Origin: Pseudomonas sp. R4-35-07
GTDB taxonomy: Bacteria; Pseudomonadota; Gammaproteobacteria; Pseudomonadales; Pseudomonadaceae
Direction of reading: 5' to 3'
Length of the DNA stretch: 64,000 nucleotides
Assembly (NCBI RefSeq): GCF_003852235.1
Contig: NZ_CP027732.1
Coordinates: forward strand, 2,418,001 to 2,482,000
The notes beneath the pieces were generated by a model. It saw nothing but the letters and a program-made list of their open reading frames with translations. It was not told the DNA's origin and searched no databases. Position 1 is the stretch's first letter. Every line of letters begins with the position of its first letter. The position numbers and the translations under genes are program-made. Shown here piece by piece: positions 301-45,983 of this stretch.

Positions 301-389
301 GGAGACACCACACCGTGCGAGTCGTCAAGAAAAAACCTAATGGATCTACGTTTGTGATCGGCTGGAATCCGACGAATGGATAGCTACAC

Positions 390-405
390 CTGTGAGTTCT
401 GACAG
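390..405. promoter_or_regulatory. CTGTNAN4TGACAG palindrome (site 1 of 3)
   Basis: CTGTGAGTTCTGACAG is a 16-bp imperfect palindrome 99 bp upstream of the start at 505. With its flanks it matches the site at 31002-31017 in 19 of 20 positions (acctgtNagttctgacagta). A third, more symmetrical copy lies at 35284-35299. The regulator is unknown. Confidence 0.55.
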
Positions 406-504
406 TATCGAACGGGTGTGATTGAGGCTTTAATTTCTACAACCCCAGGCCGGCTTATACGGTGATCGCTGGTTATTCCCGGCTGCAATGTTGAGGAAAT
501 ATTT

Positions 505-2493
505 ATGTCCGATACCGACGAACCAGCTATCACCGACGACAGCTCCAGGCTGTATGACAACGGGCCTCTGGCATTGGCCCCGATGATTATTCCCGGGGTG
601 GACCCGCTGGATCTGGAGGGCCTGATTCCGGCGGCGCTGATGCTTGCACCGCTTGAGGTGCTTATTCCCCAGTGGGGGCCGCCACCAGAACCACTGGATA
701 CACCCCATATCCTGACGCTGTATTGGGCACGGGGCGGTGCGGTGGTCTATCGCGACTTCCTGGAGATCAATGCGCCGCCCCCCCCGTTGCCGATCGAGCA
801 TCAGATGTTTGTCCCGGTGGTGGTACTGCGCGCTTTATCGGGCCCCGTTGAGCTCTATTACTCAGTCACGGACTCATTTGGCGGCGATACTGTGCTGGAC
901 CCCAAACGCACACTCACCGTGGATATGGATGAGCCGCAGTTGTTGGATCCTGCGGATCATCTGGAGTTTGTGGTGCCCCCTTCACCTGTGATGGACGAGG
1001 CTTATCTGCTCGCCAACCCTTTGGTGGCGTTTCATGTGCCGGCTTACAGGGGGCGCAGCGATGGCGACGTCCTTCACTTTTACACCTCCAATCTGGCCAA
1101 CCCACCGGTCGCGCGTGAGGACGGCGTGTACGAGTGGGTATCGAGTGGCGAGCCCCTGATCGCGTATCTGCCCGCCGACGTATTTCGTCGTCTGGTCAAT
1201 GGTGCCGCTTATATCTTTTTTCGCATTTTCGACAAGGCCGGCAATTTCAGTGATCGCAGTGCGGGCCTTCCGTTTCAACTGGGCCTGATCCCTTTGCCCT
1301 CTAATCCGCCGCTTCCCGAAATCTATCCTCCTGAGCTTTACACCGACTTGTTGATCAATCGCGAAGATGCCAGGGCCGGGATTTTTGTGCGGATCGGCAG
1401 CTATGACGGCTGGGCACCCGGGGATCAGGTTGTGGTGTATTGGAAAGGCAGGCCCACGTCGCTCCATCCCGTTGACGGCTTCCCCACCGATGTGCCGATT
1501 TCATGGCCGGTGTTACGCGGACCTCTGACGGATACGCTGGCGCCGGAAACGGTGCCGGTACGCTATGAGATTATTCGCGGCACGCTGCCCGCCTTTCCTT
1601 CGTTTGCCATTCGCGTGAATGTGAACCTGACCATCGCCGGGCAGGACCACGCCAATGCGCCGGCATTGCTGAATCCGGATTTACCCCTGGCAGAGGTCCG
1701 CGGGCTGGTGTCCAACCTCCCGAATGTGGTCAATCATGATGACAACCCTGCCGGCGCACGGGCCCGTGTCTTCCTGTATGAAAAGCCGGAGCAGGGGCAA
1801 GTCCTGCGGTTTTTCTGGAACGGTGTCGGGCCGGTCGCGTCCTACACGGTTCAAGCGGGGGATGTCGAAGGGCAGTTGGTGTTTTCCACGGTCATTCCCT
1901 GGGCGGTCATGGCGGGTTTTATTCATCCTGCCTTGCCCGTGTACTACACCACCAGTAATGGTGTGAATGAGCAACAGTCTGAAAACACCTTCGTCAATGT
2001 CAATACCGGCACGCTGATCTCATTTCCAGCGCCGATACTCAAACATACCCTGGTCGGCGGAGCCGGTTATTTAGCCTGTTGCTCAAAGCCCGAGGTGCTT
2101 TATGGCGTGCATTGGCATATAGCCAATGATCAACGCTTTGAACTTGATGATGTCGTGAGGTTTTTCTGGGCTGGATACGCCACGAATAATTGGGAGGGGC
2201 CGGTGATTGAAGACTCTCGCTATGCTGAAAGTAAATCCTTTGATAGCGAGTATGACTTGATCAATGGATTGGACTTTACGGTAGCACCCTATGAAGAGAA
2301 AGTTGTACCGATGCACGACTTTGGTTCCGCTCAAGTGTTTTATCAAGTCAGGCGACGTGGCCTATTGATCGGCGAGTCCGTGCCCAGAAGAATTCGTATC
2401 GATTTAAACTATTCTGCCGGCGGCTATTGTAAGGCGGGTGACATTATTAGCTGTTCAACGACGGGGCAAGCCACCCGCGTCTTGCCTGAATAA
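505..2493 (+). CDS. Ig-like repeat protein without signal peptide, 662 aa (paralogue 1)
   Basis: Function unknown. ATG at 505 follows GAGG with an 8-nt spacer. The protein is acidic and rich in Pro, Val, Leu and aromatic residues. It appears to be built of roughly 100-residue all-beta units that end in motifs such as FRIFDKAGNFSDRS, then a P-rich linker, then a unit opening with INREDARAGIFVRI. There is no Sec signal or membrane helix. It is paralogous along its length to the next gene: both have VIPW..., YYT.S...QQS..T.VNV and a Cys-containing tail unit. It also shares the F.D..xNxS motif with the 1257-aa protein at 31440-35213. Similar large uncharacterised repeat proteins are common in Pseudomonas. 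An adhesin or host-interaction role is only a guess. Confidence 0.8.
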   Translation: MSDTDEPAITDDSSRLYDNGPLALAPMIIPGVDPLDLEGLIPAALMLAPLEVLIPQWGPPPEPLDTPHILTLYWARGGAVVYRDFLEINAPPPPLPIEHQMFVPVVVLRALSGPVELYYSVTDSFGGDTVLDPKRTLTVDMDEPQLLDPADHLEFVVPPSPVMDEAYLLANPLVAFHVPAYRGRSDGDVLHFYTSNLANPPVAREDGVYEWVSSGEPLIAYLPADVFRRLVNGAAYIFFRIFDKAGNFSDRSAGLPFQLGLIPLPSNPPLPEIYPPELYTDLLINREDARAGIFVRIGSYDGWAPGDQVVVYWKGRPTSLHPVDGFPTDVPISWPVLRGPLTDTLAPETVPVRYEIIRGTLPAFPSFAIRVNVNLTIAGQDHANAPALLNPDLPLAEVRGLVSNLPNVVNHDDNPAGARARVFLYEKPEQGQVLRFFWNGVGPVASYTVQAGDVEGQLVFSTVIPWAVMAGFIHPALPVYYTTSNGVNEQQSENTFVNVNTGTLISFPAPILKHTLVGGAGYLACCSKPEVLYGVHWHIANDQRFELDDVVRFFWAGYATNNWEGPVIEDSRYAESKSFDSEYDLINGLDFTVAPYEEKVVPMHDFGSAQVFYQVRRRGLLIGESVPRRIRIDLNYSAGGYCKAGDIISCSTTGQATRVLPE

Positions 2494-2631: not shown

Positions 2632-4668
2632 ATGAAAAGGCAAACGTTGGACGCTATTCGCAATTTCCAAAATGAACGCAAAGCCAACCCGGACTTGTCG
2701 GTCTTGCCTGACGCCAGGCTGCAGGGGGAGGTGTCCGGGTTTCCCGGGTTGATCACCAAATCCGTCGCTCTGGCCGAAGACATGATGGTAAGCATTCCGC
2801 GGCCGGATGATTTCAGTACCAATCCGGCGGAACCTGATGTCTATAAGCTGTGGGTCCAGCCCAACGACCAGGCGGACTGGGCAAACCCTATCATCGTCCC
2901 GGAAGCGAATGTTCCGGCCACCGGGCTGGAAGTAAATGTTGTACGCGGGCGGCGCCCTGTCGGTATCAATAAGCTGAAATATAGTATAGATGTTTTCAGT
3001 GTCGGCAACAGTACCGAGTCCAACCCGCAATTGCTCATCATCGATCTTGAGCCGGCCTATGCAAGTTGGGTGGGTACCATCCCCAAGCCTATTCCCCCGG
3101 CTGATTTACCCAAAAGCGTAGATGCCGAATACTTCTTGCGCCAGCCCAATCACACGGCAATCTTCACATTCCCCGATTATGTGGGGCAAGGTAAAGCCCC
3201 AGGGGACAGGGCGCTGCTTTACTTTGCAAATTCGGATGACCCGTATTTGCCGGTAGTCGGTAACCCGGACCCGTTTTGGACGATCCCTGCAGACCTCAGT
3301 TTGCCTTTACCGCTGTCGGTGGTTCAAAACCATCCGGATGCCTTGCATAGTTTGCGCTATGTGATTGTGGATGCGGCGGGCAATGAGTCGAGGTTGTCTG
3401 GCGCGTTTAACCTGGATGTGAGCCTGTTTCCCAAACCCGGCAATTTTCGGGAGCCTACCATCGACTTGGCGGTTCCCGGCGATGGTTTGATCAACCGTGC
3501 TGATGCGGCGGCACTCAACGGCGCGATAGTGCGTATTCCCCAATACGATAATGTGCTGCGCGCGGACGATGAACTGATTATTACCCTCACCACCAGCCTG
3601 GGCACGCAAACCTTGCCCGGCTTTCCGGTTGGAAGCGCAATTTTTCCGATTCCCGTGCATGTCAATTACGCGACGCTGGTCGCGCTCTACGGGGCCACGC
3701 CAGGGTTGCTGGCATTGACGGTTTCTTATGCGGTCAGGCGCCGCTCGGTCCCTTACCCGGCGGGCTTGACAGCGACGACGGACCTGGACCTGTTTGTCGT
3801 AGGCCCAACCCCGGAGGGTCCCGATCCGATCAACACCAAGCTCAATCGGGTGCGTGTGATAGGTGTGCGGCTGGACGGCACTGAAGGGCCGGATGACGAC
3901 CAATTGACTCCGGCGCATGCGTCCAGAGATGCCATCGCGCGAATCAGACTGTGGGATGAACCACCGACACCTGACGCCAGAGACTTTACGATCAAGCTTT
4001 TTTATAACGGAAATATGGTTGATTCCCGCTTGATAACCGGTGGGGTCGCTAACGACGATGTCGATATGGTTATTCCGTGGGTCGCCATCTTCGACGGTAA
4101 AAACGGTACCAACAAATTGGCGTATTACACGATTGAGTCGACAGGCACTACCAATTCGCAGCAGTCGCCTCTCACACCTGTCAATGTGACTGCGATCGTT
4201 ATCTCGCTGGACGCACCGCGGGTGAGAAACCTCAACGCAGCCGGCTTCATCAATTGCGAAAGTTTCAGGCCTGTCGGGCCGCCCCCTGGCGACTTGGTGG
4301 TGTTTATTCCACCCAGCAATGAGTTTCGAATCAATATGGTGGTGACGCTGCATTCGCAGGGCTATAGCGATGACCTCGGAACAACGCCCGTTGGCGCTGC
4401 TGTTGGCCTGGCTACCAGGACCATCCTGACGGAAACTGATATAAACCTCGGGTTCGAAATGAATCTGGGACCTTACGCGACCATCTTCAAAACCATTCAA
4501 CCAAACGCTGCTGCGCGCCTTATGGGTTCGATGAAACTCTGGTACAGCATCCCATTCTCTGGCGGTCCCTTGGACTCCGATGAGGCGCTCCATCGTGCCC
4601 GTGGTCACAGAGCTGGGGCACCAGGCACTGCGGGAACTTTCTGTGATGGAACTGCCGTACCCGCATAG
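2632..4668 (+). CDS. Ig-like repeat protein, 678 aa (paralogue 2), probable 3' frameshift
   Basis: Tandem paralogue of the preceding gene, starting 138 bp downstream in the same direction with GGAG before the ATG, so the two may be one operon. Unit motifs include VIVDAAGNESRLSGAFNLDV, GLINRADAAALNGAIVRI and the VIPW...YYT.S...QQS segment, each with a counterpart in paralogue 1. No signal peptide is visible. The last 26 or so residues (after PLDSDEA) are Arg/Gly/Ala-rich and unlike the rest. The neighbouring frame instead reads SIVPVVTELGHQALRELS and stops at 4670-4672, and this aligns with the VPRRIRIDL tail region of paralogue 1. A one-base shift near 4585 is therefore likely, either real or a sequencing error. 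A strong terminator follows at 4691. Confidence 0.78.
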   Translation: MKRQTLDAIRNFQNERKANPDLSVLPDARLQGEVSGFPGLITKSVALAEDMMVSIPRPDDFSTNPAEPDVYKLWVQPNDQADWANPIIVPEANVPATGLEVNVVRGRRPVGINKLKYSIDVFSVGNSTESNPQLLIIDLEPAYASWVGTIPKPIPPADLPKSVDAEYFLRQPNHTAIFTFPDYVGQGKAPGDRALLYFANSDDPYLPVVGNPDPFWTIPADLSLPLPLSVVQNHPDALHSLRYVIVDAAGNESRLSGAFNLDVSLFPKPGNFREPTIDLAVPGDGLINRADAAALNGAIVRIPQYDNVLRADDELIITLTTSLGTQTLPGFPVGSAIFPIPVHVNYATLVALYGATPGLLALTVSYAVRRRSVPYPAGLTATTDLDLFVVGPTPEGPDPINTKLNRVRVIGVRLDGTEGPDDDQLTPAHASRDAIARIRLWDEPPTPDARDFTIKLFYNGNMVDSRLITGGVANDDVDMVIPWVAIFDGKNGTNKLAYYTIESTGTTNSQQSPLTPVNVTAIVISLDAPRVRNLNAAGFINCESFRPVGPPPGDLVVFIPPSNEFRINMVVTLHSQGYSDDLGTTPVGAAVGLATRTILTETDINLGFEMNLGPYATIFKTIQPNAAARLMGSMKLWYSIPFSGGPLDSDEALHRARGHRAGAPGTAGTFCDGTAVPA

Positions 4669-4911: not shown

Positions 4912-7167
4912 ATGTCAACTGTATTCAACTTCAAGCCATCGCCTTTAAGCCTGGCGTTGAAAGTCAACGCTGTCACCTTGTTGATGCTTGTAGCACATGC
5001 CGCCGATGCCCGTGTCATCACCAAGCCTGACGATTTCGTCGTGCCTGGACCTACCCCGGACTCGTTTGAGTTAAGACCAGGCTCGGGCTTTACCGTCAAG
5101 GGTGCCGTCACCAAGAACATTACCAGTCAGTCCGCAACCTTGACACTTGAGCCGGGCAGTTCTACCCAGGACATTACTGCCTATGGGTCCACTGTTCGTA
5201 TCGACGGTTCCGATGTCATTGCGCGTAGCACCGCGAATGCCGCCGTGCAGTCCAGCGACAGCAATGTGTTGGTCACCAACAGCAATATCCTCAACAAAAA
5301 CGGCAGCGGGCTGGTCGCCGGCCGGCAAGACGGGTCCAAGGTGGGCTCTAAAATCAGAGTGGTTAACTCCACCATCACCGGCACGCAGCGCGGCGCCAGT
5401 GCCAGCGCCTACAGCGTACTTGACCTGGTCGATACCAAGGTTGAAGCCACCGGCGCGACCGGTGTGGGGATTGCCCTGTTCAGCGGTCAGGCCTATGCCA
5501 CCAACAGCCAGATTGTCGGCGGGCAGAACGGTGTGCAAATGGGTATAGACGGCACCTCCGGCGTACTGGGCAACAGCCTGGTGCTGGACGGATCGAGCGT
5601 TGAAGGCAAAAGCGGCGCGGCCATTCTCACCCGGCAAGGCAGCAACGCCGACATCCAGGTGCGCAATGGTTCCAATCTGATCGGCGGCAATGGCAATCTC
5701 CTCGAAGTCACCGGTGGCTCCACGGCCAACCTGAACGTGGACAGCAGCTCGTTGTTCGGCGACGTGGTGGTCGAAGACGGCAGCCAGGCAAAAGTGCAAC
5801 TCAATAACGGTGCCTTTCTGACCGGCCAGTTGAAGAACGTCGCCCAATTGAGCGTGAACGAAGCGTCTAGGTGGGTGCTGGTCGGCAACAGCAATGTTGA
5901 CGCCTTGAAAATGGGCGGTGGCTCAGTGGAATTCGGCGCGCCGAACGAGTTTTACCAACTGGATGTGAAGAGCCTGGACGGTAACGGCACCTTCATCATG
6001 CACACCGACTTTTCCACCAACCAGACCGACTTCCTCAACGTGCAGGGCAAGGCCGAAGGTAACCACAGCCTGCTGTTGGCGGCCACCGGGTCCGAACTGG
6101 CCAAGGGCGAGCCGATCAAGGTGGTGCACACCGAAGGCGGTGATGCGCAGTTCGCCCTGGCGGGCGGCACCGTTGATATTGGCGCCTATGATTACGGCTT
6201 GAAGAAAGAAGGTACCGACTGGCTGCTCGACCCCTCCCGTCGCGGCACCAGTACTACCGCCCACTCGGTGCTGGCCTTGTTCAACAGCGCGCCGACCGTG
6301 CTGTATGGCGAGATGAGCATCCTGCGTACGCGCATGGGCGAATTGCGCTTCAGCGAAGGCGCGGGCAACGGTATGTGGATGCGCAGCTACGGCAACAAAT
6401 TCGATGTGGCGGCCAACAAGAACGGTGCGGGCTACACGCAAAACCAGAAGGGCTTCACCATCGGTGCCGACGCGCCGTTGTCCGGAGGGGACGGCCAGTG
6501 GATCGCCGGTATGATGGCCGGTCACAGCGTCTCCGATCTAAGCCTGAACCGTGGCAGCAGCGGCGAGGTCAAGAGCTACTACGTGGGCGGTTATGCCACC
6601 TGGTTGGACGCTGAAAGCGGTCTGTACTTCGACGGTGTGGCCAAGCTCAACCGGTTGCACACTGAAAATGATGTGACTATGAGCGATGGCAAGAAAGCCA
6701 AAGGCAACTACGCGCAAAACGCCGTGGGCGCCTCGGCTGAGTTCGGTCGCCATATCAAGCTGGACGACGGCTTTTTCGTCGAGCCTTATGGGCAGTTGTC
6801 GGCCACCATCACCCAGGCGCAAAGCTACGACCTGACCAATGGGTTGCACGCCAAGGGTGATCGTTCCAGTTCGGTGGTCGGTAAGCTGGGTGTGACTGCG
6901 GGCAAGAACATCCAACTGGAGAGCGGCGGTATCCTGCAGCCTTACTTGCGTACTGCGGTCGCCCACGAGTTTGACCAGAGCAACAAGGTGTTCATCAACG
7001 ACCAGAGCTTCAACAACGACCTGTCCGGCTCGCGCATCGAGCTGGCGGCCGGTGTAGCCATGGCCGTATCGGAGAACGTCAAGCTGCATGCCGACTTCGA
7101 AACCAGCCAAGGCAAGAAGATCGACCAGCCTTGGGGCGTCAACTTCGGCGTGCGGTACGACTTCTGA
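4912..7167 (+). CDS. Pertactin-like autotransporter (type Va secretion), 751 aa
   Basis: Surface protein that exports its own passenger. Residues 1 to about 33 form a signal peptide (hydrophobic VNAVTLLMLVAHAADA). Residues from about 35 to 330 are short repeats rich in N, G, S, T and V, typical of a parallel beta-helix. Residues from about 330 to 440 contain the pertactin-type stretch FYQLDVKSLDGNGTFIMHTD followed by DFLNVQGKAEGNHSLLL. From about residue 460 comes the linker and the autotransporter barrel, containing GMWMRSYGNKFDV and ending in GVRYDF with the terminal Phe expected of outer-membrane barrels. GAGG lies 8 nt before the ATG. I see no protease or lipase motif, so the passenger is probably an adhesin. 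It is monocistronic between two terminators. Confidence 0.9.
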   Translation: MSTVFNFKPSPLSLALKVNAVTLLMLVAHAADARVITKPDDFVVPGPTPDSFELRPGSGFTVKGAVTKNITSQSATLTLEPGSSTQDITAYGSTVRIDGSDVIARSTANAAVQSSDSNVLVTNSNILNKNGSGLVAGRQDGSKVGSKIRVVNSTITGTQRGASASAYSVLDLVDTKVEATGATGVGIALFSGQAYATNSQIVGGQNGVQMGIDGTSGVLGNSLVLDGSSVEGKSGAAILTRQGSNADIQVRNGSNLIGGNGNLLEVTGGSTANLNVDSSSLFGDVVVEDGSQAKVQLNNGAFLTGQLKNVAQLSVNEASRWVLVGNSNVDALKMGGGSVEFGAPNEFYQLDVKSLDGNGTFIMHTDFSTNQTDFLNVQGKAEGNHSLLLAATGSELAKGEPIKVVHTEGGDAQFALAGGTVDIGAYDYGLKKEGTDWLLDPSRRGTSTTAHSVLALFNSAPTVLYGEMSILRTRMGELRFSEGAGNGMWMRSYGNKFDVAANKNGAGYTQNQKGFTIGADAPLSGGDGQWIAGMMAGHSVSDLSLNRGSSGEVKSYYVGGYATWLDAESGLYFDGVAKLNRLHTENDVTMSDGKKAKGNYAQNAVGASAEFGRHIKLDDGFFVEPYGQLSATITQAQSYDLTNGLHAKGDRSSSVVGKLGVTAGKNIQLESGGILQPYLRTAVAHEFDQSNKVFINDQSFNNDLSGSRIELAAGVAMAVSENVKLHADFETSQGKKIDQPWGVNFGVRYDF

Positions 7168-30961: not shown

Positions 30962-31001
30962 CCAGGGATAGCGAATCAATGCGCTATTGCGGACCGTGTA
31001 C

Positions 31002-31017
31002 CTGTTAGTTCTGACAG
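31002..31017. promoter_or_regulatory. CTGTNAN4TGACAG palindrome (site 2 of 3)
   Basis: CTGTTAGTTCTGACAG lies 59 bp upstream of the lipoprotein start at 31077. It is nearly identical to site 1 at 390-405, including flanking bases. Confidence 0.55.
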
Positions 31018-31076
31018 TAGACGCCCTATAAGGACTGAGGATTAATGACCGAGCAAAATCCAATCAGGAGACGTTT

Positions 31077-31355
31077 ATGAACCTTTTCCGCACAAGTTTC
31101 AAAAACAATACGCTCTATAAATTTGCACTGGGCGCGGTCGTCGCCATGGCTGTGAGTGCCTGTGCCACCGAGCCACCACTGGAGTCACGAGAACCGGCTT
31201 GCACGAGAGCCGGCTACTTCAAAAGCACCAATGTGGTGGGTGGTTACCATCGCTGTGTATTCAGCCAAAACATTAATCGGTGGATTCAATACCCGTTTAA
31301 CTGCCCGGCCGGGTTGGAGTTCGATGAGTCCGTGGGTACCTGTGTAAGGCCCTGA
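31077..31355 (+). CDS. Small lipoprotein with peritrophin-A-like (CBM14-like) cysteine pattern, 92 aa
   Basis: Residues 1-28 form a signal with a lipobox ending VSAC. After a short linker, residues 41-91 read C-x17-C-x15-C-x12-C and contain GYF, GGYHRC and NCPAGLEFDES. These resemble the end of chitin-binding type-2 domains (CPxGLxFD...C), which are typical of insect peritrophic-matrix proteins. Canonical domains have six Cys; here only four remain, so one disulfide would be missing. AGGAG lies 6 nt before the ATG. It is divergent from mtlE, has palindrome site 2 upstream, and converges on the 1257-aa gene. Chitin or glycan binding is inferred, not shown. Confidence 0.75.
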   Translation: MNLFRTSFKNNTLYKFALGAVVAMAVSACATEPPLESREPACTRAGYFKSTNVVGGYHRCVFSQNINRWIQYPFNCPAGLEFDESVGTCVRP

Positions 31356-31439: not shown

Positions 31440-34400
31440 CTACGTCACGGTCGGATACGGCGTCTGTGTGATACAGATATCATCGATGTCATACACCCCG
31501 CCGGTGGTCGGGTTTCTGACCGAAACGGAGGCCTCGAACGGTTTGCCGGGCAAATAACCGAGCGGCACATTGACGCTGAGCCAGGTGTTCAACGTGGGCA
31601 CGTTTTGCGTCCATTTCAACGTGCCCAGATGGATCTCGACAAAGGTCGGCGCCCCAATCGCGGCAAACTTGCTGATCCTGTAGCGGAAGCTGACGCGGTA
31701 GTAGCCCTCGGCGGCGGGCGTCAGCACTTTGTACAGACTGACGCCCCTGCCGGTAGTCGGTGTCGACTGCCAGAAATAGTTGCCATTCGACTCGCGGCGA
31801 ATGCCTGCGTCCGGCCATTCACTGAGCCAGTAGTTCATGTAATTGTCATTGAACGTCGTGCACTCCTTGATCATCACGCTTTGCAGCGTGTAACGAGTGG
31901 GTGGAAATTCAATCGCTTGCAATTCATCCCTTAAGCCATTGAGCGCCACTTTGAATTGCAGGGTCAGCTGGCTGCGATTGCCAAGGTCTCGCAGGTAGTT
32001 GATCAATACGGTTTCCAGGTGATAACCCTGGCTGATCCAGGCCGAGTCGACCTCGGCCTTGTTCGAACCATTCATCAGGGTCAGGTTATGCGGCGTACCG
32101 TCGGCTCTGAAACCGTACAAATACAGCCATACGGGCAGGTGTGGGGCAATGAATGGGAAGGTCGTCACCCTTGCGGTGGCGTTGCCGGGCAGGGCGTCCA
32201 CATCGATCACGCCGCTGGCGGATGCTTGATCGATACGAATCACGGTTTTTTTCAGTTCGCTCAGCGGCAGGCTTTCAAGATTGACCGTGAGCGGTACCGA
32301 GGGCCGGGTTTGCCCGCTTCGTGTCACCGTATACCTGATCGTGAACTGCGTAGGCGTGTTGCCGATATTCGCGGCGATCACTGAAGCGGGCACGTCGACG
32401 ATGACGGTGCCATCGGTTTCGCCATACGTCGGCCCGATCACTGCCGAGCCTGCAGCGGTTTTACCCACGATCTCCACGAAGATGACGTCGCTGGTATACA
32501 TCGGGCTGGTGGACACCTGCACATGCGCCCCGTGCTGTGCGTTCAAGGGGGCCAGGGTGACCAGTGTGCCGGAGCCGGTTGCCTCGATCAGGATCGGCAC
32601 CGGGAACTGCGCGGGCAAGGCCTGAATGGTATAGCGCCGCTCCTTGAACCAGACCGCATTGGCCAGCTCGGCGCTGCGGTCGAACGTTACCCCGAAGCGC
32701 ATTTTCAGTGGCGAACCGTCCTTGAGCTTGCGCAATTCAGGGACCGGCGCCGGTGGACGAATACCGTTCAATTCGCCGTCCTGTGTCACCAGGTCTGCCG
32801 TGTAAAAGGTGTGGTAGAAGGGATAACCGTCAGCGTAGGTGCCGGACATCTCGAACCACATTCGCTGGAACCGATGACTGAAGTGCCAGCGGTCTTCAAT
32901 CGCGCGTTCGGTACCGTTCAATGTGCCGACATTCAGCACGCCATCATAGGAGTGGCCTTCTATGTAGGGTTCAGGCAGCGGCGGTGGCAACAACTCCAGG
33001 GCCAGCACAGGCGAAGGGGACTCGTGCTCGCCCCGCATGACGAAGTACTGCACGTGGATGACATGTCCCTGGGCCTGGATGTTGGCGCCCACCACCTCTG
33101 GGTCAATATCAAAGTGCAGAACTTTCGAAGAGCTGCCGTATTGGGTCTCGCAGTAAGTGCCGATGCCCGCAATGCCGGTCCAGCAACAGCGAACCTGATG
33201 GGAAGGCGCCATCTGCGGGTAGTCGACGACGACAGTCGCGCCGTTTATCGCGGCCACCGCCGCCAACTGGTCGGGATAGCGCGTGGCCTGCACGACCTCG
33301 GGACGCTTGAGGGTCAGCGCTCGGCCCACGGTAATGGTCCGGCGCTCCGAATAACGGCGTCGGCTGCCGTCCTTGGGTACCAAGGCGTAGCTCAGGCGGA
33401 TTTCCTTATTGTCATTGGCAATGACGAACGCTTCGTCCACCAGGACCACTACCGGCTTGCCGGCCGTATCGGAATAGAGTTCGACTTCCTCTCCAGTGGT
33501 TCCGCTGGCGTTGGCGCCCAGCCATGTCCAGATGAACTTGTCCCCAGGGAACGTGCGTGGGTAAGGCAACGTCAGCTTGAGCTGACCTCCGATCACGCTG
33601 GCAGGGTCCAGGTTGTCGAACACGTCGACATACTGCAATAGCGGCGCCGGCAACTCGGCGACGACCGATCCGAAAATGACTTCCAACACTTCGGACTTGC
33701 GCACCGTCTGTACGCCTGGGCCAAGCGTGCGCATTTGATGGTCATTGACGAGGTAGTAGACCTTGACCGACCCCACGCCAATGAAGGGCGCAAAATCCTC
33801 CTGCAGTACGATGCGAAAGCGATCAGGTGGCGGTGGGGCGCCGGCGTTCACGGTTTCTTCGTATTCAATCAGGCCGCCGCCAGGTCGCGGTGCTTCCATG
33901 CGAAAGGTCACGCTGTTGCTGGGGGCGTAAGGGCTGTAGACCGGAAAAATGGCTCTGATGAAAGGGTGTTCCGGATCAATCAGGCCGCCCTCGTCTTGCT
34001 CGATTCGCATCGGGGGCATCATTTTTTTTGTGCCGAACACGCGAATACTCAGGCGTCGAGAAGCGCGCAGGAAGGCGCCGCTGGCCGTTGTCAGGGTATA
34101 TTCGATGCGCAGTTGTCCATCGATCACGTCTTCAAGGTACTTATTGTCCAGCACGATGGAGGACGAAAGGCCGATGCGTGCAGGAAAACCAGGCAGCGTC
34201 ACCACGCTGGATGAGCCATCCGGGAAAAACTGGGTCAGGGTTACATGGATCAGCGCGCCAGCTGGGGTAGGTCTGGCGGTATCATTGGGCGTAGCGGGTA
34301 GCGTTCGAGGAACGACCATTTCCGCGGTGAACACCTCGTCTCCATGGGTATCAAAATTCAACTCATCGACGGACTCAACGCCGACCACGAAGTGCGGCCG

Positions 34401-35213
34401 ATCAAGCAAGCCGAGTTCAAGGTCGGTCTCCAACTTGACCACCTTCGACCACTGCGGGTCTTCCCCGGAATAGTTGAGTACGCGGTCAAACACCCGGAAG
34501 AGAATGGAGACTGCGCCGCTGCCCCCTGAAATAATCGTTTGTTCAGGTACATGCACGATGATGGGCTTGGTGCCATCAACGTGTTGCTGATCGATTTTTT
34601 GAAAAATAGCGATACCGTTCCACCACACTTCAATAGTGTCGCCTACCGTGCAGAACGGATAAAAGTCACAGGTCAAGTCCACTCCTGCCTTGGCACGCTC
34701 GGCGTCCAGCGGCGTGTATTCCAAGTCTTCAGGCAGGTGTATCACCAGGTTCGAGTGGAACCATGGGTAGACGCTGCGACCACCTGGCCGTGAGGTTTTG
34801 GTGTACCAGGTCTGAGGTGGGGATGTGCTGGGCGTGGCGCTGCCCACTCTGATCGCTTCACCGAAGCAGGGATAAATCGTGCCTTCGGGCACCAGCGATG
34901 CGGGAATGACCAACTGCACACGGTCTTTGTACAAATCTTCCGGGTAAACCTCGCCTGCACCCAAAGCGTAGCTGGTACTGCCGGCGAAAAATTTATAGGT
35001 GTCACCGACATTGAAGTTCGACCATCTTTCAAAACTCACAATCAGCCACGGATCGATCTGTCGAATGCCCAATCCTACGTCAGCATCCAGATTCGGCTGC
35101 AGTGCGCCGTTGACATACGGCGGGTCAAGGTTGACGGCGGAGGGCGATGGGGGTTCGTGGGGCGGGGATTCACACAGGGGAATGGGCAGGTTGGAGGACG
35201 TTGGTTCTTTCAT
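31440..35213 (-). CDS. Giant Ig-like repeat protein with C-terminal jelly-roll-like domain, 1257 aa
   Basis: Function unknown. It is related to the 505 and 2632 proteins: shared units include ILFRVFDRVLNYSGEDPQ, TLPGFPARIGL and ATVVVDYPQMAPSHQVRCCW. The last repeat (GVIDVDALPGNATARVTTFP and following) matches a unit repeated in many uncharacterised Pseudomonas proteins. Residues from about 1110 to 1257 form a different beta-rich domain (YYRVSFRYRISKF ... GVYDIDDICI) resembling carbohydrate-binding jelly rolls. There is no signal peptide or membrane helix. I start at 35213 (MKEPTSSNLP), which has AAGGAG 10 nt upstream, rather than 15 codons earlier. Palindrome site 3 lies 70 bp upstream. It is inserted between mtlR and mtlE. 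Confidence 0.82.
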   Translation of the reverse strand: MKEPTSSNLPIPLCESPPHEPPSPSAVNLDPPYVNGALQPNLDADVGLGIRQIDPWLIVSFERWSNFNVGDTYKFFAGSTSYALGAGEVYPEDLYKDRVQLVIPASLVPEGTIYPCFGEAIRVGSATPSTSPPQTWYTKTSRPGGRSVYPWFHSNLVIHLPEDLEYTPLDAERAKAGVDLTCDFYPFCTVGDTIEVWWNGIAIFQKIDQQHVDGTKPIIVHVPEQTIISGGSGAVSILFRVFDRVLNYSGEDPQWSKVVKLETDLELGLLDRPHFVVGVESVDELNFDTHGDEVFTAEMVVPRTLPATPNDTARPTPAGALIHVTLTQFFPDGSSSVVTLPGFPARIGLSSSIVLDNKYLEDVIDGQLRIEYTLTTASGAFLRASRRLSIRVFGTKKMMPPMRIEQDEGGLIDPEHPFIRAIFPVYSPYAPSNSVTFRMEAPRPGGGLIEYEETVNAGAPPPPDRFRIVLQEDFAPFIGVGSVKVYYLVNDHQMRTLGPGVQTVRKSEVLEVIFGSVVAELPAPLLQYVDVFDNLDPASVIGGQLKLTLPYPRTFPGDKFIWTWLGANASGTTGEEVELYSDTAGKPVVVLVDEAFVIANDNKEIRLSYALVPKDGSRRRYSERRTITVGRALTLKRPEVVQATRYPDQLAAVAAINGATVVVDYPQMAPSHQVRCCWTGIAGIGTYCETQYGSSSKVLHFDIDPEVVGANIQAQGHVIHVQYFVMRGEHESPSPVLALELLPPPLPEPYIEGHSYDGVLNVGTLNGTERAIEDRWHFSHRFQRMWFEMSGTYADGYPFYHTFYTADLVTQDGELNGIRPPAPVPELRKLKDGSPLKMRFGVTFDRSAELANAVWFKERRYTIQALPAQFPVPILIEATGSGTLVTLAPLNAQHGAHVQVSTSPMYTSDVIFVEIVGKTAAGSAVIGPTYGETDGTVIVDVPASVIAANIGNTPTQFTIRYTVTRSGQTRPSVPLTVNLESLPLSELKKTVIRIDQASASGVIDVDALPGNATARVTTFPFIAPHLPVWLYLYGFRADGTPHNLTLMNGSNKAEVDSAWISQGYHLETVLINYLRDLGNRSQLTLQFKVALNGLRDELQAIEFPPTRYTLQSVMIKECTTFNDNYMNYWLSEWPDAGIRRESNGNYFWQSTPTTGRGVSLYKVLTPAAEGYYRVSFRYRISKFAAIGAPTFVEIHLGTLKWTQNVPTLNTWLSVNVPLGYLPGKPFEASVSVRNPTTGGVYDIDDICITQTPYPTVT

Positions 35214-35283: not shown

Positions 35284-35299
35284 CTGTCAAAGTTGACAG
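35284..35299. promoter_or_regulatory. CTGTNAN4TGACAG palindrome (site 3 of 3)
   Basis: CTGTCAAAGTTGACAG is the most symmetrical of the three copies (7 of 8 positions pair). It lies 70 bp upstream of the 1257-aa gene's start. Confidence 0.55.
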
Positions 35300-38482: not shown

Positions 38483-39781
38483 ATGGTTGATCACTCCATG
38501 CAATCCTCCCCCCGCAACTCCCGTCGCTGGCTGTTCGGCCTGCTTGTGCTGCTGGTTATCGCCGGCCTGTGCTGGAAATTCTGGCCCAACGGTGCGGCCC
38601 ATAAAGACGCGCCGGCCGGGCACACCGGCAAGACCGGTATGGCGCGCCCAGGGTTTGGCGGTGCCACCGGCCCAGTGCCGGTGCGGGTGGCGCCTGCGGC
38701 ACTGGGTGATTTCCCGGTGTACTACAAGGCATTGGGCACGGTGACGGCGCTCAACACCATTAATGTGCGCAGCCGGGTGGGCGGCGAGCTGGTGAAGATC
38801 GCCTTTGAAGAAGGGCAGATGGTCAAGGCCGGCGACCTGCTGGCCGAAATCGACCCGCGCAGCTACCAGAACGCCTTGCTCCAGGCCCAGGGCACGTTGT
38901 TGCAGAACCAGGCCCAGCTGAAAAACGCCCAGGTCGACGTCGAGCGTTATCGCGGCCTGTATGCCCAGGACAGCATCGCCAAGCAGACCCTGGACACCGC
39001 CGAAGCGCTGGTGATGCAGTACCAGGGCACGGTCAAGACCAACCAGGGCGCGGTCGACGATGCCAAGCTGAACCTTGAATTCACCAAGATCCGCGCGCCG
39101 ATTGCCGGTCGCGTCGGCCTGCGTCAGCTCGATGTCGGCAACCTGGTGGCCGCCAACGACACCACCGCCCTCGCGGTGATCACTCAGACCCAACCAATCA
39201 GCGTGGCCTTCACCCTGCCGGAAAATACCCTGGAAACCGTGCTGGCCCGTTACCACGCCGGCAACAAACTGCCGGTGGAAGCCTGGGACCGTGGCGACGC
39301 GAAAAAGCAGGCGGTGGGCGTGCTGCAAAGCCTGGACAACCAGATCGACGTGACCACCGGCACCCTGAAATTCAAGGCGCGCTTCGATAACAAGGATCAG
39401 GCGCTGTTCCCCAATCAGTTCGTCAATGTGCATCTGCTGGCCGACACCTTGCACAACGTGGTACTGGCACCTTCCGCTGCGATCCAGTTCGGTAACAACG
39501 GCACCTTCGTCTACAAGCTCGATGGCGACAAGAAGGTCAAGGTCCAGCCGCTGGTGGTGGGCGACACCGATGGCGACAACACCGTGATCAAGCAAGGCCT
39601 CGCGGCGGGTGATCGGGTGGTCATGGAAGGCACCGACCGTCTCAAGGACGGCAGTGAAATCGAAGTGGTCAACGACAGCAGCGAAGTGCCGACCACCCCG
39701 ACCGAACACCTGCAAGGCAAACCCGCGGCAAAAGGGGAGACCGGCACTGACGGCGGCAAGGCGCAAAAGGTCGGCGCATGA
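38483..39781 (+). CDS. muxA: RND efflux periplasmic adaptor MuxA/MdtA, 432 aa
   Basis: Membrane-fusion protein of a tripartite pump with two RND subunits. One N-terminal membrane anchor ([18 protein letters not shown], residues 15-32), lipoyl half-motifs [20 protein letters not shown] and [20 protein letters not shown], and a coiled-coil hairpin between. No good ribosome site precedes the ATG at 38483; a second ATG lies five codons on. Its stop overlaps the muxB start by 4 nt. Confidence 0.92.
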
Positions 39782-42700
39782 ACCTGTCGCGCCTGTTCAT
39801 CCTTCGCCCGGTCGCCACCACGCTGAGCATGCTGGCCATTGTACTGGCCGGCCTCATCGCCTATCGCCTGTTGCCGGTGTCGGCCTTGCCCCAGGTGGAC
39901 TACCCGACGATTCGGGTGATGACGCTGTACCCCGGCGCCAGCCCCGACGTGATGACCAGCGCAGTCACCGCGCCGCTGGAGCGCCAGTTCGGGCAGATGC
40001 CCGGCCTGACCCAGATGGCGTCCACCAGCTCCGGCGGTGCGTCGGTGCTGACCCTGCGCTTCAACCTCGACATCAACATGGATGTCGCCGAGCAACAGGT
40101 ACAGGCTGCGATCAATGCCGCCACCAACCTGCTGCCCAAGGATTTGCCGGCGCCGCCGGTGTACAACAAGGTCAACCCGGCGGATACCCCGGTACTGACG
40201 TTGGCCATCACCTCCAAGACCATGCTGCTGCCCAAGCTCAATGACCTGGTCGACACGCGCATGGCGCAAAAGATCGCGCAGATCAGCGGTGTCGGCATGG
40301 TCAGCATCGCCGGTGGCCAGCGCCAGGCCGTGCGCATCAAGGTCAACCCCGAGGCCCTGGCGGCCAACGGCTTGAACCTGTCGGACGTGCGCACCTTGAT
40401 CGCCGCGTCCAACGTCAACCAGCCCAAGGGCAATTTCGACGGCCCCACGCGGGTGTCGATGCTCGATGCCAACGACCAGTTGGTCTCGCCCCAGCAATAT
40501 GCCGAACTGATCCTGGCCTACAGCAACGGCGCGCCGCTGCGCCTTAAAGACGTGGCGCAAATTGTCGACGGCGCCGAAAACGAGCGCCTTGCTGCCTGGG
40601 CCAATGAAAACCAGGCCGTGCTGCTCAATATCCAGCGCCAGCCGGGCGCCAACGTGATCGAGGTGGTGGACCGTATCAAGGCGCTGCTGCCGAGTATCAC
40701 CGACAACCTGCCGGCGGGCCTGGACGTGACCGTGCTCACCGATCGCACCCAGACCATCCGCGCGTCGGTGAAAGACGTGCAGCACGAATTGCTGATCGCC
40801 ATTGTCCTGGTGGTAATGGTGACGTTCCTGTTCCTGCGCCGAGTCAGCGCCACGCTTATTCCATCCATCGCCGTGCCGCTGTCGCTGATCGGCACCTTTG
40901 GCGTGATGTACCTGGCGGGGTTCTCGGTCAACAACCTGACGTTGATGGCCCTGACCATTGCCACCGGGTTCGTGGTGGACGATGCCATCGTGATGCTGGA
41001 GAACATCTCCCGCTACATCGAGGAAGGCGAGACGCCCATGGCCGCCGCGCTCAAAGGCGCCAAACAGATCGGCTTCACCCTGATTTCCCTGACCCTGTCG
41101 CTGATCGCCGTATTGATCCCGCTGCTGTTCATGGCCGATGTGGTCGGGCGCCTGTTCCGTGAGTTTGCCATCACCCTGGCCGTGGCGATCCTGATTTCCC
41201 TGGTGGTGTCCCTCACGCTCACGCCGATGATGTGCGCGCGCTTGCTCAAGCGTGAGCCGAAAGAAGAGGAGCAGGGCCGCTTTTACAAGGCCAGCGGCGC
41301 CTGGATCGATTGGCTGATCGAAGCCTACGGGCGCAAGTTGCAATGGGTGCTCAAGCACCAGCCGCTGACCCTGCTGGTGGCCATCGCCACCCTGGGCCTT
41401 ACGGTGGTGCTGTACCTGGTGGTGCCCAAGGGCTTTTTCCCGGTGCAGGACACCGGCGTGATCCAGGGCATTTCCGAGGCGCCGCAGTCGATCTCCTTTG
41501 CGGCGATGAGCCAGCGCCAGCAGGAACTGGCGAAGATCATCCTGGCCGATCCGGCGGTTGAAAGCCTGTCGTCCTACATTGGCGTGGACGGTGATAACGC
41601 CACGCTCAACAGCGGCCGCTTGCTGATCAACCTCAAGGCCCACGGGCAGCGCGACTTGAGCGCGACGCAGGTGATCGCGCGCCTGCAGCCGGAAATCGAC
41701 AAGCTGGTGGGCATCCGCCTGTTCATGCAGCCGGTGCAGGACCTGACCATTGAAGACCGCGTCAGCCGCACCCAGTACCAATTCAGCATGTCGTCGCCGG
41801 ACGCCGAGCTGTTGGCCCTGTGGAGTGAAAAACTGGTGCATGCCCTCAGCCAGTTGCCGGAACTCACCGACGTGGCCAGTGACCTGCAGGACAAAGGCCT
41901 GCAGGTGTACCTGGTGATCGATCGCGATGCCGCCTCGCGCCTGGGCGTCAGCGTCTCGACCATCACCGACGCGCTGTACGACGCCTTCGGCCAACGGCAG
42001 ATTTCCACCATCTACACCCAGGCCAGCCAGTACCGCGTGGTATTGCAGGCCCAATCGGGCGAAACCCTGGGCCCGGCCGCGCTCAACCAGATCCATGTGA
42101 AGACCACCGACGGCGGCCAGGTACGGCTGTCGAGCCTGGCCCATGTGGAGCAGCGCCAGGCGCAGTTGGCGATTGCCCATATCGGCCAGTTCCCGGCGGT
42201 GATGATGTCGTTCAACCTGGCCCCCGGCGTTGCGCTGGGCAAAGGCGTCGAGCTGATCAACCAGACCCAGAAGGACATCGGCATGCCGGTCGGCGTGCAG
42301 ACCCAGTTCCAGGGCGCGGCCCAGGCGTTCGAGGCCTCGCTGTCGAGCACCTTGCTGCTGATCCTGGCGGCGGTGGTCACCATGTACATCGTGCTCGGCG
42401 TGCTCTACGAGAGTTATATCCACCCGATCACCATTCTCTCGACCTTGCCCTCGGCGGCGGTGGGTGCCTTGCTCGCCTTGCTGCTCAGTGGCAATGACCT
42501 GGGCATGATCGCGATCATCGGCATCATTTTGCTGATCGGTATCGTCAAGAAGAACGCGATCATGATGATCGACTTCGCCCTCGACGCCGAGCGCAACCAG
42601 GGCCTGGACCCGCAGACCGCCATTTACCAGGCGGCGCTGCTGCGCTTCCGGCCGATCCTGATGACCACCCTGGCCGCCTTGTTCGGTGCGGTGCCGCTGA

Positions 42701-42879
42701 TGCTGGCCAGCGGTTCCGGTGCGGAACTGCGCCAGCCCCTGGGCCTGGTGATGGTCGGCGGGTTGCTGGTGAGCCAGGTGCTGACGCTGTTCACCACGCC
42801 GGTGATCTACCTGTATTTCGATCGGTTGGGACGGCGCTGGCGCAAGGAACCGCAGAGCCTGGAGCCGGTTGAATCATGA
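39778..42879 (+). CDS. muxB: RND efflux pump subunit MuxB/MdtB, 1033 aa
   Basis: First of two paired RND transporters. Starts [15 protein letters not shown]. Proton-relay Asp pair in [20 protein letters not shown] and Lys in [16 protein letters not shown]. In E. coli MdtBC and P. aeruginosa MuxBC the two subunits form a mixed trimer. ATGA overlaps occur with the genes on both sides, so the operon is tightly coupled. Confidence 0.94.
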
Positions 42880-45800
42880 ACCTGTCCGGACCGTTCATTC
42901 GCCGGCCAGTAGCCACGATGCTGCTGAGCCTGGCGATCATGTTGCTCGGCGGCGTCAGCTTCAATCTGCTGCCGGTGTCGCCGTTGCCGCAGATCGACTT
43001 CCCGGTGATCGTGGTGTCGGCCAGCTTGCCCGGCGCCAGCCCCGAGGTCATGGCGTCTACCGTGGCCACGCCGCTGGAGCGCTCGTTCGGCGCGATTGCT
43101 GGCATCACCACCATGAGCAGTTCATCGAGCCAGGGCTCGACGCGGGTGATCCTGGCGTTCGATTCCGACCGCGATATCAACGGCGCGGCGCGGGAAGTGC
43201 AGGCGGCGATCAATGCGTCGCGCAACCTGCTGCCCAGCGGCATGCGCAGCATGCCCACGTACAAGAAGATCAACCCGTCCCAGGCGCCGATCATGGTGCT
43301 GTCGCTGACCTCGGACGTGCTGCAGAAGGGCCAGCTGTACGACCTGGCCTCGACCATCCTGTCCCAGAGCCTGTCCCAGGTGCCGGGGGTGGGTGAAGTG
43401 CAGATCGGCGGCAGTTCGCTGCCGGCGGTGCGCATCGAACTGGAGCCCAAGGCCCTCGACCAGTACGGCGTGGCCCTGGACGATGTGCGCAATACCATCG
43501 CCAACGCCAACCAGCGCCGGCCCAAGGGTTCCCTGGAAGACAGCGAGCGCAACTGGCAGATTCAGGCCAACGACCAGTTGGAAAAAGCCAAGGACTACGA
43601 GCCGCTGCTGATTCGCTACCAGAATGGCGCGGCGCTGCGCCTGAGCGATGTGGCGAAGATCAGCGATGGCGTCGAAGACCGTTACAACAGCGGTTTTTTC
43701 AACAATGATTCGGCGGTGCTGCTGGTGATCAACCGCCAGTCCGGCGCCAACATCATCGAGACGGTGCGGCAGATCAAGGCGCAGTTGCCGGCGTTGCAGG
43801 CGGTGTTGCCGTCCAGCGTCAAGCTCAACCTGGCCATGGACCGTTCGCCGGTCATCACCGCCACCTTGCACGAAGCCGAAATGACCCTGCTGATCGCCGT
43901 GGCCCTGGTGGTGCTGGTGGTGTACCTGTTCCTGGGCAACTTCCGCGCCTCGTTGATCCCCACCCTGGCGGTGCCAGTGTCGCTGGTGGGCACTTTTGCG
44001 GTGATGTACCTGTACGGGTTTTCGTTGAACAACTTCTCGCTGATGGCGCTGATCCTGGCCACCGGCCTGGTGGTGGACGATGCCATCGTGGTGCTGGAGA
44101 ACATTTCCCGGCATATCGACGAGGGCGTGCCGCCGATGAAGGCTGCCTACCTGGGCGCCGAGGAAGTCGGCTTTACCTTGCTGTCGATGAACGTATCGCT
44201 GGTGGCGGTGTTTCTCTCCATCCTGTTCATGGGCGGGATCGTCACCAACCTGTTTCGTGAGTTTTCCATCACCTTGTCGGCGGCGATCATCGTCTCGCTG
44301 ATCGTGTCGCTGACCCTGACCCCGATGCTCTGCGCGCGCTGGCTCAAGCCCCATGTCAAAGGGCACATGACCGGGTTGCAGCGCTGGAGCCACCGCATCA
44401 ACGAGCGCATGGTCGCCGCCTATGCCACCAGCCTGGACTGGGTGCTGCGCCATCGACGCCTGACCCTGCTCAGCCTGCTGGTCACCGTGGGCGTGAACAT
44501 CGCGCTGTACGTGGTGGTGCCGAAAACCTTCATGCCCCAGCAGGACACCGGCCAGTTGATCGGTTTTGTGCGCGGCGATGACGGGCTGTCGTTCAATGTG
44601 ATGCAGCCGAAGATGGAAATTTTTCGCCAGGCCGTGCTCAAGGACCCGGCGGTGCTCAGCGTGGCTGGCTTTATCGGCGGCAACAGTGGCATCAACAATG
44701 CGGTGATGCTGGTGCGCCTCAAACCCATCGGTGAGCGCAAGGCCTCGGCCCAGGCGGTGATCGAGCGCTTGCGCAAGGAGGTACCGCTGGTGCCGGGCGG
44801 TCGTCTGTTCCTGATGGCCGACCAGGACCTGCAGTTTGGCGGCAGCCGCGACCAGACCAGCGCGCAGTACTCCTACATCCTGCAAAGCGGTGACCTGGCC
44901 GCGTTGCGCCTGTGGTACCCGAAAGTGGTGGCCGCCATGCGTGAACTGCCGGAGCTGACCGCCATCGACGCCCGCGAAGGACGCGGCGCGGCCCAGGTCA
45001 CGCTGATCGTCGACCGCGATCAGGCCAAGCGCCTGGGGATCGACATGGACATGGTCACCTCGGTGCTGAATAACGCCTACAGCCAGCGGCAGATTTCCAC
45101 GATCTACGACAGCCTCAACCAGTATCAGGTGGTGATGGAGGTCAACCCTAAATATGCCCAGGACCCGATCACCCTTAACCAGGTGCAGGTGATCACCGCC
45201 GATGGCGCGCGCGTGCCGCTGTCGACCATTGCCCATTATGAGAACAGCCTGGCCGATGACCGCGTCAGCCATGAAGGGCAGTTCGCCTCGGAAAACATCG
45301 CGTTCGACATGGCGCCCGGCGTCACGGTGGAGCAGGGCACTGCTGCCATCGAACGCGCGATTGCCAAGGTCGGCCTGCCGGAAGATGTGATCGCCAAGAT
45401 GGCCGGCACCGCCGACGCGTTCGCCGCGACCCAGAAGGGCCAGCCGTTCATGATTCTCGGTGCGTTGGTGGCGGTGTACCTGGTGCTGGGCATTCTGTAT
45501 GAAAGCTATATCCACCCGCTGACGATCCTGTCGACCTTGCCGTCGGCCGGGGTCGGCGCGTTGCTGTCGATCTACCTGCTGGGCGGGGAGTTCAGCCTGA
45601 TCTCACTGCTGGGATTGTTCCTGCTGATCGGGGTGGTGAAGAAAAACGCGATCCTGATGATCGACCTGGCGCTGCAGCTTGAGCGTCATGACGGCATGAG
45701 CCCGCTGGAGTCGATTCGCAGCGCCTGCCTGCTGCGCCTGCGCCCGATCCTGATGACCACCCTGGCGGCGATTCTCGGGGCCTTGCCATTGCTGCTCGGC

Positions 45801-45983
45801 GCCGGCGACGGCGCGGAAATGCGCCAGCCCCTGGGCCTGACCATTATCGGCGGCCTGGTGTTCAGCCAGATCCTGACCCTTTACACCACTCCGGTGGTTT
45901 ACCTCTATCTTGACCGCGCGCGCCACCGCTTCAATGCCTGGCGCGGCGTGCGTACCGATGCTGCCCTGGACACTGCGCTATGA
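42876..45983 (+). CDS. muxC: RND efflux pump subunit MuxC/MdtC, 1035 aa
   Basis: Second RND subunit, paralogous to muxB. Starts [15 protein letters not shown]. Asp pair in [20 protein letters not shown] and Lys in [16 protein letters not shown] are intact. The stop codon overlaps the downstream outer-membrane gene by ATGA, which fixes that gene's start. Confidence 0.94.

Follow-up and report, generated by a model that had tools for sequence, protein, structure and literature searches.

The window analysed here is a stretch of 64,000 nucleotides (G000:C1:2418001-2482000) from a genome of one 5.84-Mb contig. Three dispersed genes in it are preceded by the same 16-bp palindrome, which raises the question whether the sites are copies of one regulatory element and, if so, what kind of protein would read it. 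A first-pass annotation, made from the letters alone, had reported the motif, and a pattern scan recovered all three copies with no mismatch (390-405 on the forward strand, 31002-31017 on the forward strand, and 35284-35299 on both strands). Between sites 1 and 2, 19 of 20 positions are identical (ACCTGT[G/T]AGTTCTGACAGTA), the distances to the annotated starts are 100, 60 and 71 bp, and the window holds no further exact site; on each of these points the annotation had been accurate, including its range of 60 to 100 bp and its remark that it had noticed the motif at no other gene here. The exact pattern gave 4 strand-matches, whereas 200 simulated windows averaged 0.03 and never exceeded 2; at two mismatches the count was at chance level (14 matches versus a shuffled mean of 12.1). 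The three window sites are real and beyond chance.

The genes concerned are the following.

505..2493, forward strand: 662-aa protein, a tandem beta-sandwich (Ig-like) protein according to its model, with box-driven homologues in four other loci
2632..4668, forward strand: 678-aa paralogue of the 505 protein (25% over 554 aa), in the same direction
31077..31355, forward strand: 92-aa lipoprotein with a CBM_14 (peritrophin-A) domain (Pfam; lipobox by eye)
31440..35213, reverse strand: 1257-aa protein with homologues that have boxes of their own, in its own genome and in other species

The match to CBM_14 in Pfam bears out the peritrophin-like label that the 31077 protein had been given. The label 'Ig-like' fared less evenly: an AlphaFold model of the 505 protein of moderate quality (6 sequences, mean pLDDT 60.9, pTM 0.34) matched tandem beta-sandwich arrays in the PDB at low TM-scores, and for the 1257-aa protein the label is that of the annotation only. 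Neither protein matched a Pfam family at E<=0.001 or an NCBIfam family at E<=1, and no signal peptide was seen by eye in the Ig-like proteins. The paralogue gene at 2632..4668 has no exact box of its own in the window pattern scan and possibly forms one operon with the 505 gene. Downstream of these two Ig-like genes lies a pertactin-type autotransporter (4912-7167, forward strand; Pfam). Elsewhere in the window, four consecutive forward-strand ORFs of 432, 1033, 1035 and 512 aa (38483-47518) presumably resemble an RND efflux operon of the MuxABC-OpmB/MdtABC kind, judged by size and order only.

We then considered the whole genome. The pattern ACCTGTNAGTTCTGACAG, with up to 2 mismatches, gave 7 matches versus 0 for its reversed control, and CTGTNARNTYTGACAG, a pattern oriented towards the gene, occurred at 19 places when up to 1 mismatch was allowed, 13 of them exact (control matches 0 and 3). 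An inexact match at 1086539, inside a 495-aa ORF, is probably due to chance. Of the 13 exact places, six precede genes for Ig-like or related proteins: two are sites 1 and 3, and the other four belong to a run of consecutive genes. Site 2, before the gene of the CBM_14 lipoprotein, is a seventh, and the remaining six adjoin small or unnamed genes, the box pair and the symmetric box described below among them. The four consecutive genes (G000:C1:3991056-4002667; L034, L035) encode proteins of 897, 858, 905 and 857 aa, two of them 99% identical over the 468 residues compared, and adjoin a 4298-aa NRPS-like gene. Each has one box, 95 or 96 bp before its start. Two identical boxes lie 295 bp apart near cold-shock-like ORFs (G000:C1:4041040 and 4041335; L025, L026), and box pairs about 300 bp apart also occur in G164, G183 and G119. 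A symmetric box with extended palindromic flanks (G000:C1:814456-814471; L014) stands between two divergent genes, one of which probably encodes a SET-domain protein, and may serve both directions; such boxes were also seen in L057 and L061.

Across the genus, exact matches to CTGTNANNTYTGACAGTAG were found in 111 of 199 Pseudomonas genomes (783 matches, 0 to 24 per genome, some symmetric boxes being counted on both strands), and the reversed control pattern gave 0 in each of the 199. In a sample of the family the exact box was present in 36 of 77 genomes of the same genus and in none of 171 genomes from 18 other genera. Among named genome contigs, at least 118 stretches with the box were found; of the 80 listed, 73 were titled Pseudomonas (P. 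fluorescens, P. mandelii, P. koreensis, P. brassicacearum, P. gingeri and P. viridiflava among them), and the other 7 came from scattered taxa outside the genus. From one genome to another the inner bases vary, for example CATTTC in G037 and G077, and AATTTC and CAGATC in G019 and G198. The annotation had itself set random placement, or an equal association with housekeeping genes, against its proposal, and the scans found neither: 97 of 114 boxes avoid ORFs of 250 aa or more, compared with 35 of 114 positions drawn at random from the same loci, and the genes behind the boxes are mostly accessory.

For two of the three window genes, homologues in other species also stand behind a box. The 1257-aa protein is homologous to two of the four tandemly encoded proteins of its own genome (E about 1e-23) and has box-driven homologues elsewhere, among them one in L144 (27.5% over 1007 aa). 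The 662-aa protein of site 1 has such homologues in L214 (33% over 626 aa), L213, L145 and L165. For the CBM_14 lipoprotein, no box-driven homologue was seen in the comparison with box-downstream proteins of other loci. The largest cluster of downstream proteins has 18 members, and the 1257-aa protein matches nine or more of them. Pfam families (E<=0.001) were tallied for 91 of 113 downstream ORFs, after 8 that were too short or contained X and 14 doubtful by eye, one ribosomal-protein-L11-like and one sensor-kinase-like ORF included, had been left out. Among the best 25 of 31 families were GtrA (4), RHS repeat (4), SET (4), cold-shock domain (3), VRP1 (3), DUF5122 (3), thioredoxin (3), MdoG (2), tyrosinase (2), SpvB (1) and ADP-ribosyltransferase (1). 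RHS, SpvB and VRP1 suggest Tc-toxin-complex genes. The theme of the regulon is mostly one of accessory genes, often toxin- or interaction-like. The 'surface-interaction set' of the annotation proved too narrow a description, since SET-domain, cold-shock-domain, thioredoxin-like, tyrosinase and Tc-toxin-like genes are also preceded by boxes in relatives and the Ig-like proteins lack a visible signal peptide.

The anatomy of the element was derived from an alignment of 114 of 121 contexts, retained after removal of the 7 listed non-Pseudomonas loci and of duplicates; a few may nevertheless be non-Pseudomonas, and the invariant positions and the TAG of the resulting 114-box matrix are imposed by the search pattern itself. 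The flanks read A[CA] and, past the required TAG, [AC]C[AG] at offsets 19-21. A second conserved patch occupies offsets 39-44 (71% of the contexts have T at 44, and 55% have A at 43). When TATAAT was scored at every offset, 32 of 114 contexts had at least 4 of 6 matches at offset 39, whereas offsets outside 36-43 averaged 2.8 such contexts and never exceeded 7. The best offset was the same in 17 contexts from the genome itself (6 of 17), which had been found without requiring TAG and carry it in 11 cases, and a weaker peak at that offset was present in 34 contexts from genus relatives (5 of 34 reached 4 or more matches there, 3 at the runner-up offset). From the conserved patch and the -10 peak it follows that the box adjoins a -35-like TAGACR, that the spacer is 17 bp, and that the expected start lies about 43 bp downstream of the box centre; the predicted box centre is therefore near -42.5 and the box touches the -35. 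In other words, a 20-bp dyad has the core in its middle and is followed by -35-like and -10-like hexamers at fixed spacing. The element is directional, with TGACAG-TAG facing the gene. The dyad ends CT-N12-AG occur in all 114 contexts, as the pattern imposes, and the offset-4/11 pairs, which the pattern leaves free, are complementary in 76 of 114. The parts in the window, with scores under the 114-box matrix, are these.

388..407, forward strand: site 1, 20-bp lux-box-like dyad (pattern match; score 31.2)
406..411, forward strand: site 1, weak -35-like hexamer TATCGA (consensus offset 16-21)
429..434, forward strand: site 1, -10-like hexamer TTTAAT (offset 39-44, the peak of -10 matches)
31000..31019, forward strand: site 2, 20-bp lux-box-like dyad (pattern match; score 33.7)
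31018..31023, forward strand: site 2, -35-like hexamer TAGACG (consensus offset 16-21)
31041..31046, forward strand: site 2, -10-like hexamer ATTAAT (offset 39-44)
35284..35299, reverse strand: site 3, perfect 16-bp palindrome (score 16.4)

Site 3 lacks the TAG, and the hexamer at its -10 position is poor (GTGTGA). Its core is identical to that of the two boxes at 4041040 and 4041335, and its assignment rests on core, position and gene family. Taken together, this is a real, strongly constrained promoter class, and we are highly confident that the box is a genuine activator site.

Lux boxes are centred near -42.5 and adjoin the -35, and CT-N12-AG ends are typical of them. When the box matrix was applied to the 25 RhlR boxes (from ChIP-seq) given in the available part of PMC10732425, none was outscored by more than 4 of its 300 shuffles (mean z 3.8). 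The highest scores were 15.8 (rhlA) and 15.6 (PA14_48140), with a mean of only 2.3; 5000 random 21-mers reached at most 2.1. The operator is thus likely lux-type, and we consider it probable that a LuxR-type protein reads it.

The genome encodes five proteins matching PF03472 and one luxI. One of the five is the best candidate for the reader.

G000:C1:5031052-5031786: fpr-adjacent orphan LuxR of PpoR type (subgroup A, QscR-like; PF03472, best PDB match QscR)

An fpr-like ORF is adjacent to this gene, and the fpr neighbour was found in 37 of 40 loci of relatives; the sole luxI found lies away from it, at 3038817. The other flank expected of a subgroup A gene is a 23S rRNA methyltransferase; the ORF downstream of the PpoR-type gene in L037 (7854-9056) may by eye be one, and a strict pattern recovered it in part of the relatives. 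PpoR-like matches at E<=1e-20, the weakest of which may be other LuxR proteins, were present in 102 of 111 box-bearing versus 39 of 88 box-free genomes. Of 20 box-rich genomes chosen from the 27 with 10 or more box matches, 10 yielded no PF03472 protein other than the PpoR-type LuxR. An Arg in its recognition helix was found in 46 of 51 box-bearing versus 4 of 32 box-free genomes, picked by box count and with 5 of 88 LuxR sequences (second or unclear copies) left out; in many box-free genomes the helix reads SQSTVNFH. Exceptions are G081 (18 matches) and G080 (11), which have boxes without the Arg, and G103, G104, G128 and G083, which have the Arg and no box. A tree of the neighbouring fpr protein, built for 23 of 41 loci, places seven of nine box-free rows in one clade and needs no more than 3 helix changes, so that the helix contrast is suggestive and, being confounded with clade, not independent. 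On balance, PpoR could equally be or not be the protein concerned.

Nine box-bearing genomes, four of them with 3 to 6 box matches, have no PpoR-like match; judged partly from the P. viridiflava matches, these appear to be syringae-like. All nine carry a distinct LuxR solo (e.g. L098:1276-1992, reverse strand), which is found in 19 of 199 genomes overall, 12 of them with boxes (30 matches). It is divergent and in several cases stands beside mtn-type (methionine salvage-like) genes, named by eye. In the PpoR-less genomes, either this LuxR or another protein would read the box. The other LuxR proteins of the genome were set aside as general readers: the LasR-like one (L011) had a match of 46% identity or more in just 8 of 199 genomes, its own included; L012 exceeded 70% identity in just 4 of 199; and for the PAB-type LuxR beside a pip-like gene (L010), PsoR-like by this neighbour gene by eye, the box-bearing genomes G068, G082 and G148 each have a single PF03472 match, of the divergent type just described. 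Autoregulation was likewise discarded, as the three 2-mismatch matches in the LuxR loci examined are not upstream of a LuxR gene.

The reading that we prefer, and hold with somewhat more belief than doubt, is that of a lux-box-type activator site in a complete weak--35 promoter, with a PpoR-type receptor as its likeliest reader across most of the genus. In this view a LuxR-family receptor, as a dimer, would bind the 20-bp dyad, whose centre would lie about 43 bp upstream of the transcription start, and would recruit RNA polymerase to the adjoining weak--35 promoter (class-II activation), which would switch on the dispersed accessory regulon. In syringae-like genomes that lack the PpoR type, another orphan LuxR would take the place of the fpr-adjacent one. 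Of all this, the sites, their recurrence through the genus, the constant -10 spacing, the intergenic placement and the linkage of box and gene in other species are observed; that the box activates and does not repress, the LuxR family, the regulator and its signal are deductions. One may instead suppose that the box has no single dedicated regulator and that its LuxR reader varies from clade to clade, or that several LuxR receptors share it (PpoR, the mtn-adjacent LuxR, others where present). This would fit the distinct LuxR in every PpoR-less box-bearing genome, where it is the only PF03472 protein found in 6 of the nine; however, 7 of the 19 genomes that have it lack the box, and the single PF03472 protein of half the box-rich genomes also argues against this idea, which we regard as unlikely. 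The annotation had proposed one regulator for a scattered, co-controlled set: the dispersed regulon with a shared activator-type site stood, and a single regulator for all was not borne out, syringae-like genomes having boxes without the best candidate.

Explanations outside the LuxR family were also weighed. A dyad at a position near -42 also suits class-II Crp/Fnr sites, and with the imperfect co-occurrence of PpoR this would fit a non-LuxR activator, of Crp/Fnr type or of an undescribed family, that uses a TGTCA-N4-TGACA dyad in class-II position. Against this, the CT-N12-AG ends are lux-type, and consensus CRP and FNR sites (TGTGA-N6-TCACA and TTGAT-N4-ATCAA, near -41.5 in class-II promoters) score -19 and -40 under the box matrix, although a family member with a TGTCA half-site could exist; such an activator seems rather improbable to us. 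LexA/SOS boxes, or those of a LexA-like repressor, share the CTGT...ACAG ends, and at 4.5 the LexA consensus outscores 17 of the 25 RhlR boxes, although it is far below sites 1 to 3. A LexA box was nevertheless rejected: offset 5 is A (fixed by the pattern) and not LexA's T, the centres read NANNTY and not the TATATA of the LexA consensus, the box occurs in one of 19 genera of the family whereas LexA is widespread, and there is a single fixed distance to the -10. We thus give this explanation very little credence, and even less to a mobile or repeated (REP-like) element that carries the palindrome and is no promoter. The many intergenic copies would suit such an element; yet conservation is limited to box, -35 and -10, the remaining flanks not being conserved in the 114 contexts, the distance from box to predicted start is constrained (quartiles 65, 85 and 106 bp for 113 ORFs), and the -10 spacing is fixed.

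If the lux-type reading is right, its wider meaning can be put forward tentatively. One branch of Pseudomonas may have a large quorum-sensing-type regulon run by a synthase-less orphan AHL-type receptor (an eavesdropper), in which up to about 24 unlinked accessory loci per genome would be controlled through one near-identical promoter and new genes would join by acquiring it. Such a regulon would comprise Tc-toxin-like genes, tandem Ig-like proteins, and SET-domain and other rare proteins, so that one switch would serve many accessory genes, insect-toxin-like and Ig-like ones included, in soil and plant-associated species. The predicted direct targets and the 20-bp site would make the role of the subgroup A LuxR solos directly testable, and if the regulator were another protein the promoter class would still define a genus-wide regulon. 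In the open-licence literature, searches for the literal box strings gave listed matches that were unrelated by title, those for las-type box strings and for the Tc-toxin motif gave none, and a quorum-sensing-type regulon of this kind was not found in print.

How, then, does the element compare with known systems? The candidate receptor has the same fpr neighbour and the QscR-like sequence of PpoR and subgroup A (PMC2703642, PMC8546723, both as far as their available text goes). PpoR of P. putida is reported to bind 3-oxo-C6-HSL, in a source whose available text does not use the term 'lux box' (PMC2703642). Subgroup A is described as comprising the most widespread LuxR solos of the group, with a response mechanism called unknown and no evidence found of AHL binding for one member; the sections available name no operator or dispersed regulon (PMC8546723). 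The genome also contains a luxI/luxR pair adjoining phzA/B-like ORFs. The phz-box of P. chlororaphis PA23 is likewise a lux-type box of a Pseudomonas LuxR, but its consensus as given in the available part of PMC7048289, VCKRCHWGHKYKBSHWRK, demands a C at position 5 that by eye the present box lacks in either orientation, and PhzR was discarded as the reader on account of this difference. The element also resembles the las/rhl boxes of P. aeruginosa, which in the part of PMC10732425 available are also 20-bp dyads with CT-N12-AG ends. Those boxes mostly read CTGCCA/TGGCAG or CTACCA, whereas here CTGTCA/TGACAG is near-invariant and followed by a fixed TAG, in part imposed by the pattern; the RhlR box of PA14_48140 is identical to CTGTCAGTTCTGACAG in 15 of 16 core bases (same source, same part).
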